DNA of 64,000 nt from positions 806,001 to 870,000 of the forward strand of contig NZ_FSQW01000002.1 of assembly GCF_900128895.1 (NCBI RefSeq), written 5' to 3'. Positions 8,988 through 12,650 of the stretch are shown piece after piece. Source of the stretch: Parasphingorhabdus marina DSM 22363. Its GTDB lineage: Bacteria; Pseudomonadota; Alphaproteobacteria; Sphingomonadales; Sphingomonadaceae. The notes under the pieces are model-generated. The model ran no database searches, was not told the DNA's origin, and saw nothing but the letters and a program-made list of their open reading frames with translations. Position numbers and translations under genes: made by a program. Each line of letters starts with the position of its first letter. Positions within the stretch are counted from its first letter, which is position 1.

Positions 8988-10223
8988 ATGAACGAAACCT
9001 CTCCCAACAGTTTCCGCAATCAGCCCGACGATCGCGGCCATTTTGGCGAATTTGGCGGGCGTTATGTCGCCGAGACGCTGATGCCGCTGATCCTGGACCT
9101 GGAAACCCACTATCGTGCGGCCCAGCAGGACCCGGCTTTTGCCGAGGAATTTGACGATCTGCTCGAACATTATGTCGGCCGGCCGTCGCCGCTCTACTAT
9201 GCCGAAAGACTGACCGAGGACGTCCGCAAGGATGCGCCGGACGGCAAAGGCGCACAGATCTGGTTCAAACGCGACGAGCTCAACCATACCGGCGCGCACA
9301 AAATCAACAATTGCATCGGCCAGATCCTGCTCGCCAAGCGCATGGGCAAGACCCGGATCATCGCCGAAACCGGCGCCGGCCAGCATGGTGTCGCCACCGC
9401 CACCGTCTGCGCGCGTTTTGGCTTTCCCTGCACAATCTTCATGGGTGCCACCGATATCGAACGGCAGAAACCGAATATCTTCCGGATGAAATTGCTCGGC
9501 GCAGAAGTGGTGCCAGTGACCAGCGGCTCTGCGACGCTGAAAGACGCGATGAACGAGGCGTTGCGCCACTGGGTCGCGCATGTCCATGACACGTTTTACA
9601 TTATTGGCACCGCCGCCGGCCCCCATCCCTACCCGGAACTCGTCCGCGATTTCCAATCGGTGATCGGCAAGGAAGCGCGCGCCCAGATGCTGGACCGGAC
9701 CGGCAAACTGCCCGACCTGCTGGTCGCGGCGATCGGCGGCGGCTCCAACGCGATCGGCCTGTTCCACCCGTTCCTTGATGACCGCGACGTCAAAATGCTC
9801 GGCGTGGAAGCCGCCGGACGCGGGCTCGACAAGGAACATGCGGCCAGTCTGGCCGGCGGCGGACCCGGCATCCTCCACGGCAACAAGACCTATCTTTTGC
9901 AGGATGAAGACGGCCAGATTGACGAAGCCCACTCGATCAGCGCCGGGCTCGACTATCCCGGCATTGGGCCGGAGCATAGCTGGCTGAAAGAAAGCGGCCG
10001 GGTCGATTATGACAGCGCAACCGACCGGGAAGCACTGGACGCCTTCCAGCTGCTCTGCCGCACCGAAGGGATCATCCCGGCGCTCGAACCCAGCCATGCC
10101 ATCGCCGCCGTGACGCGAGAAGCGATGAAGATGGAGCGTGACCAGATCATCCTCGCCAACCTCTGCGGGCGGGGAGACAAGGATATTTTCACCGTTGCGG
10201 AAGCGCTGGGGACGGAGATGTGA
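8988..10223 (+). CDS. trpB: Tryptophan synthase beta chain
   Basis: A 411-residue PLP enzyme that joins indole and serine to give tryptophan. The PLP lysine is Lys105 in HTGAHKINN, the glycine-rich phosphate cup is GGGSNAIG near residue 250, and [11 protein letters not shown] is also typical. Length and ends fit TrpB1. The gene starts right after the REP-like pair with only a weak ribosome site, so the repeat lies in its leader. It is followed by a four-base overlap with a small membrane protein gene and then, unusually, by the DUF559 element before trpA. Confidence 0.97.
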
Positions 10224-10408
10224 ATTTCAGACTAACTCTTCGTGCTTTTCGGAACGGTGTTGTGTTTACCTTGCTTGTGCTGGCAATAATTTATTTGGTC
10301 AGAGCCACGATGGGACAAGAGATCGTGCAGTCTTTCGATGCTGTGTGGTTTGCCATATTCTTCGCGGTCGGGACAATTCGAACGTTTATTCACGGCCCCA
10401 AGGGATGA
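10220..10408 (+). CDS. Small two-helix membrane protein behind trpB
   Basis: A 62-residue open frame whose ATG overlaps the trpB stop by four bases (ATGTGA context), a usual sign of translational coupling. It has a basic N-terminus and two hydrophobic segments ([14 protein letters not shown] and [13 protein letters not shown]), so it is probably an inner membrane protein. I do not recognise the family. The stretch may have arrived with, or been cut off from trpA by, the adjacent DUF559 element, which starts 34 bases after its stop. Confidence 0.5.
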
Positions 10409-10441: not shown

Positions 10442-10479
10442 AGCCCTCTCCCCTTCAGGGGAGAGGGTTGGGAGAGGGG
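10442..10479 (+). repeat. Left inverted repeat of the DUF559 element
   Basis: Hairpin at 10444-10467 with a 10-bp perfect stem and TTCA loop, then TTGGGAGAGGGG. The terminal GGGAGAGGGG (10470-10479) is seven bases before the DUF559 ATG and acts as its Shine-Dalgarno. Confidence 0.9.
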
Positions 10480-10486
10480 AACACCC

Positions 10487-10876
10487 ATGCGTGATTCCCG
10501 TTTGCTGGAATTTGCGCGGCGGTCTCGACGCGAAATGACCGAACCGGAAACACGCATGTGGCTGGAACTGCGTGCCAAACGCTTTCACGGCATTAAGTTT
10601 CGCAAGCAAAAGGTGATCGGAAAGTATATCGCTGATTTTTCAGCCCGGGATCCCATGCTGGTAATTGAAATTGACGGAGACAGTCATGGCGTGCAGCGGG
10701 AATATGAAGAGCGGCGAACGCGATATCTGGAAGGTCAGGGATATCGGGTTGTTCGTTTTACAAATGAGGAAGTTATGACGAATTTGGATGGTGTTTTGCA
10801 GAGACTGGGGGAAATAGTTTGCGACATGAATCCCCCTCTCCCAACCCTCTCCCCTGAAGGGGAGAGGGCTCTATGA
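10487..10876 (+). CDS. DUF559 (Vsr-like) endonuclease-domain protein
   Basis: A 129-residue protein of the DUF559 family, small relatives of the Vsr patch-repair endonuclease. The core runs ARRSRREMTEPETRMWLELR, then FRKQKVIGKYIADF, then MLVIEIDGDSH, giving the D...ExD pattern of PD-(D/E)xK nucleases, and ends with GYRVVRFTNEEV. The last residues (PPLPTLSPEGERAL) are encoded by the downstream inverted repeat and are unlikely to matter for the fold. Its stop overlaps the trpA ATG by four bases (ATGA). The ribosome site comes from the upstream repeat. Substrate and role are unknown; involvement in moving or copying the flanking repeats is an inference. Confidence 0.85.
   Translation: MRDSRLLEFARRSRREMTEPETRMWLELRAKRFHGIKFRKQKVIGKYIADFSARDPMLVIEIDGDSHGVQREYEERRTRYLEGQGYRVVRFTNEEVMTNLDGVLQRLGEIVCDMNPPLPTLSPEGERAL
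10833..10870 (-). repeat. Right inverted repeat of the DUF559 element
   Basis: Exact reverse complement of 10442-10479. It encodes the end of the DUF559 protein, and its GGGGAGAGGG at 10859-10868 lies four bases before the trpA ATG. Confidence 0.9.
10859..10868 (+). promoter_or_regulatory. Repeat-derived ribosome binding site of trpA
   Basis: GGGGAGAGGG, four bases before the trpA ATG at 10873, is the 3' arm of the repeat hairpin. If the hairpin forms, this site is paired; ribosomes finishing the DUF559 frame would open it. Confidence 0.6.
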
Positions 10877-11661
10877 CCCGCCTCTCCTCTGCTTTTCCCT
10901 CAGACCGTGCTGCGCTCGTCGCTTTTGTCACCGGTGGCGATCCCTCGCCAGCTGACACAGCCACCATCCTCGACGCTCTCGTCGAAGGCGGCGCGGATAT
11001 CATAGAACTCGGCATGCCTTTCACCGATCCGATGGCGGATGGCCCATCCATTCAGGAAGCGAATATTCGCAGTCTGGGTGCAGGCACGAAAACAGCAGAT
11101 ATTTTCGCCATCGCCCAAGCGTTCCGGGAGCGGCATCCCGACACACCGCTGGTGCTGATGGGCTATGCCAATCCGATGACGATCCGCGGGGCGGACTGGT
11201 TTGCCGAACAGTGCAAGGCCGCCGGTGTGGATGGTGTGATCTGTGTCGATATTCCGACGGAGGAAGATGACAGTCTCGGCCCTGCCCTGCGCGCGCAGGA
11301 TATTGCGACCATCCGTCTCGCCACACCCACCACGGATGACGCCCGCCTGCCCGCCGTGCTCGATAACGCCACCGGGTTTCTCTATTATGTCTCGGTCGCG
11401 GGAATTACCGGCCAGCAGCAGGCCGCGCAGGACAGCATTGCGGCCGCCGTCGCCAAGTTGAAGGCCCAGACCGATCTGCCCGTCGCGGTTGGCTTTGGCG
11501 TGCGGACGCCCGAACAGGCCGCCGATATCGCCCGTGTCGCCGATGGTGTGGTTGTTGGATCGGCCATTGTCGAGATTGTCGGGGAGCATGGCAAAGCGGC
11601 CGGACCGCATGTTCGGGACTATGTCAAATCGCTTTCCGATGCTATCAGAAGCGCACGCTGA
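10873..11661 (+). CDS. trpA: Tryptophan synthase alpha chain
   Basis: A 262-residue TIM barrel that cleaves indole-3-glycerol phosphate and channels indole to TrpB. The catalytic glutamate and aspartate are seen in ELGMPFTDPMADGP and the phosphate loops in VGFGVRTPEQA and GVVVGSAIVE. It is separated from trpB by a small membrane gene and the DUF559 element, which supplies its ribosome site, and its ATG overlaps the DUF559 stop. The stop is 19 bases before accD, so transcription probably continues. Confidence 0.96.
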   Translation: MTRLSSAFPSDRAALVAFVTGGDPSPADTATILDALVEGGADIIELGMPFTDPMADGPSIQEANIRSLGAGTKTADIFAIAQAFRERHPDTPLVLMGYANPMTIRGADWFAEQCKAAGVDGVICVDIPTEEDDSLGPALRAQDIATIRLATPTTDDARLPAVLDNATGFLYYVSVAGITGQQQAAQDSIAAAVAKLKAQTDLPVAVGFGVRTPEQAADIARVADGVVVGSAIVEIVGEHGKAAGPHVRDYVKSLSDAIRSAR

Positions 11662-12535: not shown

Positions 12536-12538
12536 GTC

Positions 12539-12571
12539 CCCCTCCCGCTTGCGGGAGGGGCTAGGGGAGGG
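12539..12571 (+). repeat. Palindromic repeat, left unit (accD-folC gap)
   Basis: A 22-base palindrome CCCCTCCCGC-TT-GCGGGAGGGG at 12539-12560 followed by CTAGGGGAGGG. It has the same build as the ends of the DUF559 element (10-bp hairpin, short linker, second G-rich arm) but a different arm sequence. Confidence 0.85.
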
Positions 12572-12612
12572 AGAATCTCTAATGACTGTCGCCTCGCCTT
12601 TGGCACTTCACG

Positions 12613-12645
12613 CCCTCCCCCAACCCCTCCCGCAAGCGGGAGGGG
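12613..12645 (-). repeat. Palindromic repeat, right unit (accD-folC gap)
   Basis: Reverse complement of 12539-12571 with 31 of 33 positions the same. The two units enclose only 41 bases with no gene, like a REPIN. Its last arm GGGAGGGGAG (12638-12647) sits three bases before the folC ATG and is the only ribosome site there. Confidence 0.85.
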
Positions 12646-12650
12646 AGTAG

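Follow-up and report, generated by a model that had tools for sequence, protein, structure and literature searches.

Hairpin repeats around DUF559 genes suggest a REPtron-like system with a Vsr-fold nuclease

Genes of the DUF559 family lie beside or between short hairpin repeats far more often than control positions do, and in Parasphingorhabdus marina one such gene sits between two perfect inverted repeat copies inside the trp operon. That DUF559 genes and hairpins are associated we hold to be practically certain. The explanation we favor, and consider probable, is a REPtron-like system in which a Vsr-fold nuclease stands in place of the HUH transposase, with DUF559 acting on the repeats and spreading them. 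We observed bracketing of the genes by repeats, a correlation between gene presence and repeat load, co-divergence of protein and repeat, gene-free repeat pairs, presence or absence of the element at matching sites, and a nuclease fold whose active site is conserved. The co-occurrence of hairpin and nuclease in many bacteria points to an enzyme of a type not yet described, one by which short repeats would be spread or maintained in genomes.

The repeat pair and its gene in the trp operon

The window, the whole 64,000-nucleotide stretch that was analyzed, comes from the 3.55 Mb genome of P. marina DSM 22363 (G000), one of a genus set of 32 genomes. Within it, two 38-nt arms, the left REP on the + strand (10442-10479) and the right REP on the − strand (10833-10870), are 100% complementary, the right being an exact inverted copy of the left, with 353 nt between them. 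Each arm contains the palindrome CCCTCTCCCCTTCAGGGGAGAGGG (10444-10467 in the left REP), followed on its gene-facing side by a G-rich arm, TTGGGAGAGGGG (10468-10479), that resembles the G-rich arm of the stem; GGGGAGAGGGTTGGGAGAGGGG (10458-10479, left REP) also fits a G-quadruplex motif. Folded as DNA, the 38-nt repeat gave −11.9 kcal/mol (z −2.3) with a stem of 10-11 pairs. With up to 3 mismatches allowed, the palindrome occurred at only two places in the window and at none in 100 shuffles. The earlier note had described perfect 38-bp inverted repeats around a single DUF559 gene, each a hairpin with an extra G-rich arm, and this description holds. Across the 3.55 Mb of G000, CCCTCTCCCCN{2,8}GGGGAGAGGG matched these two places only, and the looser CTCTCCCN{2,8}GGGAGAG matched three, i.e. 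one extra (control, 1); this whole-genome pattern search found no gene-free copy of the trp-type repeat.

The ORF between the repeats (10487-10876, + strand, 129 aa) matches PF04480, DUF559 (E = 1.3e-34), and in Pfam it also matches PF18741 below that family's cut-off. Its stop overlaps the start of the downstream neighbor (10873-11661, + strand), which we take to be trpA, in the ATGA at 10873-10876; the ORF thus runs through the right repeat, which codes for the C-terminal tail of the DUF559 protein. The upstream neighbor (8988-10223, + strand) is presumably trpB, a name given from its sequence and not by a family search. A 62-aa ORF (10220-10408) sits between trpB and the left repeat, and the element is therefore not the sole occupant of the trpB-trpA gap: the earlier claim that it splits trpB from trpA stands insofar as the DUF559 gene lies between them, but the gap is shared. 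This small ORF encodes a hydrophobic stretch and overlaps the trpB stop.

An AlphaFold2 model of the protein (mean pLDDT 91) gave only three structure matches at E ≤0.001, namely 3hrl (1e-8), which is NGO0050 of Neisseria gonorrhoeae and also a sequence match (E = 4.5e-21), and two chains of the I-Bth0305I catalytic domain (3r3p_B, 1.9e-4). Vsr folds matched at 0.03-0.09 (1vsr, 0.031), among Toxoplasma mitoribosomal proteins and PvuRTs1I. In an alignment of 127 rows (126 distinct), which omitted four broken genus genes and one phylum sequence, conservation was 1.00 at R14, W25, Q41, D50, E61, D63, G64, R77 and R90 and 0.99 at E21 and H67. Judged by the modeled fold and the acidic/His active site (D50, E61, D63, H67), the protein belongs to the EDxHD/Vsr nuclease superfamily, in keeping with its earlier identification as a Vsr-like nuclease. 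The label EDxHD has already been given to a DUF559 gene in a published paper (PMC9403480), whose accessible portion mentions no inverted repeat or palindrome. The likeness to the EDxHD homing endonuclease I-Bth0305I and to Vsr lies in the catalytic fold; I-Bth0305I, as portrayed in the excerpted text of PMC3943268, is a long multi-domain enzyme, whereas the window protein is a single domain of 129 aa.

Hairpins around DUF559 genes in other genomes

G000 holds three DUF559 genes, all with such hairpins nearby. One (L001) is bracketed by a 33-nt pair, 91% complementary, of the CCCCTCCCGC..GCGGGAGGGG type, and another (L003) has two hairpins just upstream, with none detected downstream within 350 bp. 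PF04480 is present in 29 of the 32 genus genomes. We took 62 of the 67 matches as loci, leaving out two second gene fragments and three weak matches, and scored hairpins with a stem of at least 9 bp no more than 200 bp from the domain; 2 of the 62 lay too close to a contig end for this test (n = 60). Hairpins flanked the gene on both sides at 39/60 loci and on at least one side at 47/60, compared with 0/121 and 1/121 sliding controls at the same loci. Counting against a REPtron-like reading, 11 of the 62 loci had none of the three main hairpin classes nearby.

Other palindromes also occur beside DUF559 genes. At least five of these 11 class-less loci carry GTCAGCC..GGCTGAC or a close variant; the DUF559 genes L082, L086, L088, L089 and L090 lie near this palindrome or near GTCAGTCC..GGACTGAC, neither of which was counted in the three classes. 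At L070 and L031, the repeats near the gene resemble CGTC-type REPs (cgtcATGCCAGCGCAGGCTGGCATcca and similar).

The same arrangement was found well outside the genus. For the Pseudomonadota, we used the 30 best matches and 40 chosen among the matches listed, giving 69 distinct loci (L111 and L135 are the same). Hairpins lay on both sides at 31/69 and on at least one side at 62/69 (controls, 0/2167 and 123/2167, with 2091 of 2169 placements coming from the 40 longer loci). Among loci from named records, the best 80 of 563 confirmed matches and so the closest to the query, 2 were too near an end, and the corresponding counts were 44/78 and 66/78 (controls, 2/2613 and 149/2613); some records gave two loci, and this set may overlap the phylum set. 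Two-sided hairpins were seen in, for example, Novosphingobium, Devosia, Thiobacillus, Acinetobacter, Dyella and Methylomonas, and also in MAGs labeled Nitrospira, Omnitrophota, Daviesbacteria and Rokuibacteriota. When DUF559 genes were compared with other ORFs of the same loci, with hairpins accepted as far as 90 nt within the ORF ends and ORFs less than 700 bp from the gene excluded, both sides were occupied at 36/90 versus 3/253 and either side at 69/90 versus 34/253. A cruder gene-boundary control (both sides, 7/29 versus 15/493; at least one, 22/29 versus 137/493) is weak because long ORFs run through repeats and neighbors share repeats. With bracketing far above the sliding controls in the genus, phylum and named-record loci, the general link between DUF559 and repeats that had been proposed is upheld, as is the RAYT-like layout of arm and gene, a gene between inverted REPs, both in the window and family-wide. 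We also looked for a placement of the repeats that had no link to DUF559 genes, and it did not appear.

Neither phages nor plasmids explain the genes as cargo: 3 of 50,697 phage records and 37 of 72,556 plasmid records matched, all at <60% identity. Of three plasmid regions opened, two (L311, L313) had one hairpin per side and the third (L312) had other palindromes. On the Sphingomonas parapaucimobilis plasmid NZ_CP155753.1 (L311), the hairpin-flanked DUF559 gene lies between sufB and sufC, a position akin to that in the trp operon.

The second, G-rich arm is a feature of a subset of loci. At a score of at least 7 and within 45 nt, a copy of the arm was found inward versus outward of the stem in 21 versus 2 of 100 hairpins in the genus and 41 versus 16 of 105 in the phylum, a contrast that shrank at 70 nt (22 versus 12 of 100; 42 versus 26 of 105). 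A four-tract G-quadruplex motif lay within 250 bp at 22/60 genus loci, compared with 1/294 control windows, and at 37/69 phylum loci, compared with 15/1151. The TCCTCTCCC class has no inward G-rich tail; in its gene-free pairs, judged by eye, the stem is followed by another small palindrome, with a G-rich arm at a distance beyond it.

Repeat and protein diverge together. Among loci with a hairpin within 250 bp (53 of 58 distinct rows in the genus; 64 of 68 in the phylum), palindrome similarity tracked protein identity, with r = 0.60 in the genus (0 of 999 permutations) and r = 0.18 in the phylum (2 of 999). Restricting the genus to one locus per site group strengthened this result (r = 0.43-0.65; 0 of 199 permutations in each of 20 draws), and linkage at shared sites is thus not the whole cause of the co-divergence. 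Five elements, those of G000, G023, G030, Sphingomonas sp. PAMC 26605 and a Sphingomonadaceae MAG, have 38-nt ends that are identical letter for letter on both sides, while their proteins share only 54-70% identity; the Qipengyuania element has one such end, and with it included the proteins are 54-73% identical. At codon positions 1, 2 and 3, the three trp-type genes of the genus are 0.64-0.75, 0.79-0.82 and 0.40-0.49 identical, which indicates that the trp-type DUF559 protein is constrained.

Gene-free repeats, shared sites and competing explanations

Repeats of these kinds also occur in pairs that enclose no gene. In G000 the pattern of the L001 class had 21 occurrences (control, 0): the pair around L001, a single copy upstream of L003 and nine pairs without a gene, whose two copies start 62-85 nt apart. 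One pair of this class, CCCCTCCCGC..GCGGGAGGGG, the same that brackets L001, lies in the window at 12537-12647 (no strand assigned), between genes we take to be accD and folC. Gene-free inverted hairpin pairs of this sort are the REPIN form. G001 and G003 have gene-free pairs (L179, L180) in which one of the two ends is the exact 38-mer of the trp element. Gene-free cognate pairs, a feature of REPtrons, are thus present for the L001 class in G000 and for the 38-mer in G001 and G003, and absent for the trp type in G000. The earlier proposal of a nuclease-driven, repeat-spreading element is supported in part, by the RAYT/REPtron-like anatomy and the repeat link, but at the trp locus it lacks a gene-free copy in the same genome. 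Nine further copies of the 38-mer lie in eight viral contigs; among the viral stretches fetched, only L318 has a DUF559 ORF, which is nearly 3 kb off and has its own hairpins.

Repeat load follows the gene across genomes. We counted copies of CTCTCCCN{2,10}GGGAGAG in 299 Pseudomonadota genomes (complete per-genome counts), 112 of which had a DUF559 match. The 86 at E ≤1e-12 were scored positive and the 26 weaker matches negative. At least 5 copies were present in 66 of the 86 positive genomes and in 13 of the remaining 213 (odds ratio 51, p = 8e-35), and at least 10 copies in 57 of 86 and 8 of 213; the counts include copies bracketing the DUF559 genes themselves, which matters more at the low threshold than at the high one. 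In all, 3865 of 4306 pattern copies reside in DUF559-positive genomes. Stratifying by family left the association intact (odds ratio 50, p = 3e-10; 10 informative strata). Stratifying by genus gave p = 0.04 with only 5 informative strata, a result that counts against the REPtron-like reading. Among the 13 exceptions, with at least 5 copies and without a strong DUF559 match, are G277 (152 copies), G085 (57) and G204 (36), and three (G277, G057, G178) have weak DUF559 matches. As a separate observation, G085, G204, G246 and G277 hold 34-152 hairpin copies without a strong DUF559 match.

Presence of the element varies between relatives. The trpB-trpA gap could be resolved in 25 genomes of the genus (7 others gave none): three contain the DUF559 element (G000, G023, G030), three consist of an ATGA overlap (G005, G018, G026), three hold gene-free hairpins of other classes (G006, G009, G021) and 16 hold 121-505 bp of other sequence, in the place where the window has its 62-aa ORF. 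The comparison of this gap in relatives that the earlier note had called for therefore yields sites without the element, the ATGA overlaps. In L231-L234 and L140, too, the trp-type gene closely follows the end of TrpB, and in several genera the gene adjoins trpB. To this extent it appears as a settled part of the operon, as the earlier note had allowed, but the repeats are present there too. Elsewhere, the L072 element is absent at the matching site in seven relatives, which have 7-14 bp instead; for an eighth (G025), the site comparison gave no result and a separate comparison gave an unbroken match. The L063 site, occupied in G004, is 16-17 bp long in G030 and G031, and the L008 site measures 54-70 bp; in G025 and G027 it includes what looks like the remnant of a hairpin. 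No repeat pair was found at the empty sites of L063 and L072. The flanks of these relatives, about 71-95% identical, are too diverged for exact junctions or target duplications to be read. Among the sites matching L063 (L204, L205, L208, L211), those of G028, G025, G027 and G029 have 359 bp of unrelated sequence that looks ORF-like by eye.

By site, the 62 genes of the genus form 17 groups, each with one coarse repeat class, and 12 of these groups are common to several species. Since presence varies but sites recur, the pattern points to inheritance with loss or to homing, and sites seem to be shared as they are for vertically inherited RAYTs or homing-type genes. From the same grouping, the gene-free pair seems to spread more than the gene. 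One alternative is a homing-type, free-standing nuclease gene that would cut an unoccupied site, such as the trpB-trpA junction, and be copied in by repair, the repeats serving as fixed borders or homology arms. It fits the fold match to I-Bth0305I and the shared yet patchy sites, and also the divergence of trp-type proteins (64-70% identical in the genus, 53-73% among eight loci compared) although the adjoining TrpB ends are 78-96% identical. We consider it unlikely, if the best of the alternatives, as it leaves unaccounted for the gene-free pairs and the repeat load that follows the gene across genomes, and genomes carry the gene at several sites, with up to 10 DUF559 matches in one.

An alternative of still lower probability is that another enzyme moves the repeats and DUF559 genes settle inside existing repeat pairs. 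A Y1 transposase (RAYT) as that enzyme can be discounted for G000, which, like 18 more of the 32 genus genomes, has no match to its domain PF01797 (present in 13), and for the 14 Y1 loci taken among the 22 matches listed for the genus, none of which has these hairpins. These Y1 loci showed other stems, e.g. ACCAGCT..AGCTGGT, presumably IS200-like, or none. The PF01797-free genomes G000, G001, G004, G005 and G030 carry from 25 to 66 hairpins, with three patterns summed, and a RAYT is an unlikely explanation for such genomes. The earlier statement that the enzyme of the trp element, a PF04480 protein, is not a RAYT was thus correct. By class, gene-free repeats were linked to the cognate DUF559 gene within the genus with p = 0.02 (A), 0.004 (B) and 0.17 (C), a modest link. 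The presence of Y1 accompanied the gene-free load of B (p = 0.008) and C (p = 0.003) but not of A (p = 0.25), which counts against the REPtron-like reading and in favor of hitch-hiking genes, as do the gene-free repeats of other classes in three trpB-trpA gaps and the 13 repeat-bearing genomes named above as exceptions. What makes hitch-hiking improbable is that DUF559 occurs in 66 of 79 repeat-rich genomes versus 86 of 299 overall, that the 14 Y1 loci lack these repeats, that co-divergence holds between different sites too, and that the empty L063 and L072 sites show no repeat pair into which a gene could have settled.

Hairpins can also terminate transcription, and DUF559 could be an ordinary mismatch-repair or defense nuclease whose hairpins act as terminators or insulators that make its insertion harmless. 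In line with this, the Caulobacter DUF559 protein VsrA is reported, in the accessible part of PMC12907096, to be induced together with the DNA damage response, and a role as a Vsr-like mismatch endonuclease is proposed for it there. We give this alternative very little weight, as hairpins bracket other ORFs of the same loci so much more rarely, the 38-nt ends stay identical while the gene diverges, and no PADLOC anti-phage defense family matched (0 at E up to 1).

Relation to known repeat systems

REPs that bracket RAYTs, the coevolution of RAYT and REP, and REPINs are established, as far as the consulted sections of PMC2817692, PMC3733652, PMC8049555 and PMC8266576 go. The DUF559 elements resemble the REPtron, whose RAYT is the HUH/Y1 enzyme TnpA-REP, in having one gene between two inverted hairpin repeats, in protein-repeat co-divergence, in gene-free inverted pairs (though not of the trp type in G000) and in a gene confined to few sites. 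They differ in that DUF559 is a Vsr/EDxHD-fold nuclease and not Y1_Tnp (PF01797), and in repeats that lack the GTAG tag and often have an inward second G-rich arm; neither GTAG nor GTGG, the tag as defined in the consulted parts of PMC3733652 and PMC2817692, occurs in the 38-nt repeat. The same 2013 survey (PMC3733652), in the portion available, reports CGTC-tagged REPs as paired short palindromes, mostly of alphaproteobacteria, without a dedicated transposase, with stems that almost invariably start with A-T pairs, a CGTC tag and a CCA tail. The DUF559 repeats are C/T-rich, without CGTC tag or A-T stem start, and, going by their letters and by that definition as far as it could be consulted, they are not CGTC REPs.

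A non-coding pair that shares its kind of ends with a gene-bearing element is also what a MITE with an autonomous parent looks like, and the gene-free DUF559 pairs have the same kind of ends as the gene-bearing element. Here, in contrast, the ends are hairpins, the enzyme is not a known transposase, and no target duplication was seen, given flanks about 71-95% identical. In the literature searched, consisting of titles and abstract openings with subscription papers and bioRxiv preprints largely outside it, a link between DUF559 and repeats is not described.

Under the REPtron-like reading, a small Vsr/EDxHD-fold nuclease (DUF559) would have its gene enclosed by two copies of its own repeat in inverted orientation, the repeat being a C/T-rich hairpin that often has a second, gene-facing G-rich arm. 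With this second arm the strand could fold in alternative ways: as a hairpin, with the alternative arm pairing or, in a large subset, as a G-quadruplex. The nuclease may recognize the folded repeat and nick or cut there, after which repair or replication would copy the repeat-bounded segment elsewhere and give rise to REPINs, while the gene would mostly remain at its old sites, kept by selection. A more far-reaching version, to which we lean somewhat less than evenly, is that DUF559 proteins are, next to the HUH transposases and unrelated to them, another widespread class of enzymes that spread REPs; they would recognize the folded C/T-rich repeat (as hairpin, alternative arm or G-quadruplex), cut there and so seed REPIN populations, with cognate gene-repeat pairs in each lineage. 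A direct test at the bench is possible, since any genome that has both the gene and the repeats provides a protein together with its matching repeat.

The 2013 survey PMC3733652, as far as consulted, distinguishes two large classes of REP, and just one of them, the GTAG class, had an enzyme. If DUF559 drives the C/T-rich repeats, a third REP class would be explained (4306 copies of one pattern in 299 genomes), as would a common protein family of unknown function, and a non-HUH nuclease would join the enzymes that spread repeats.
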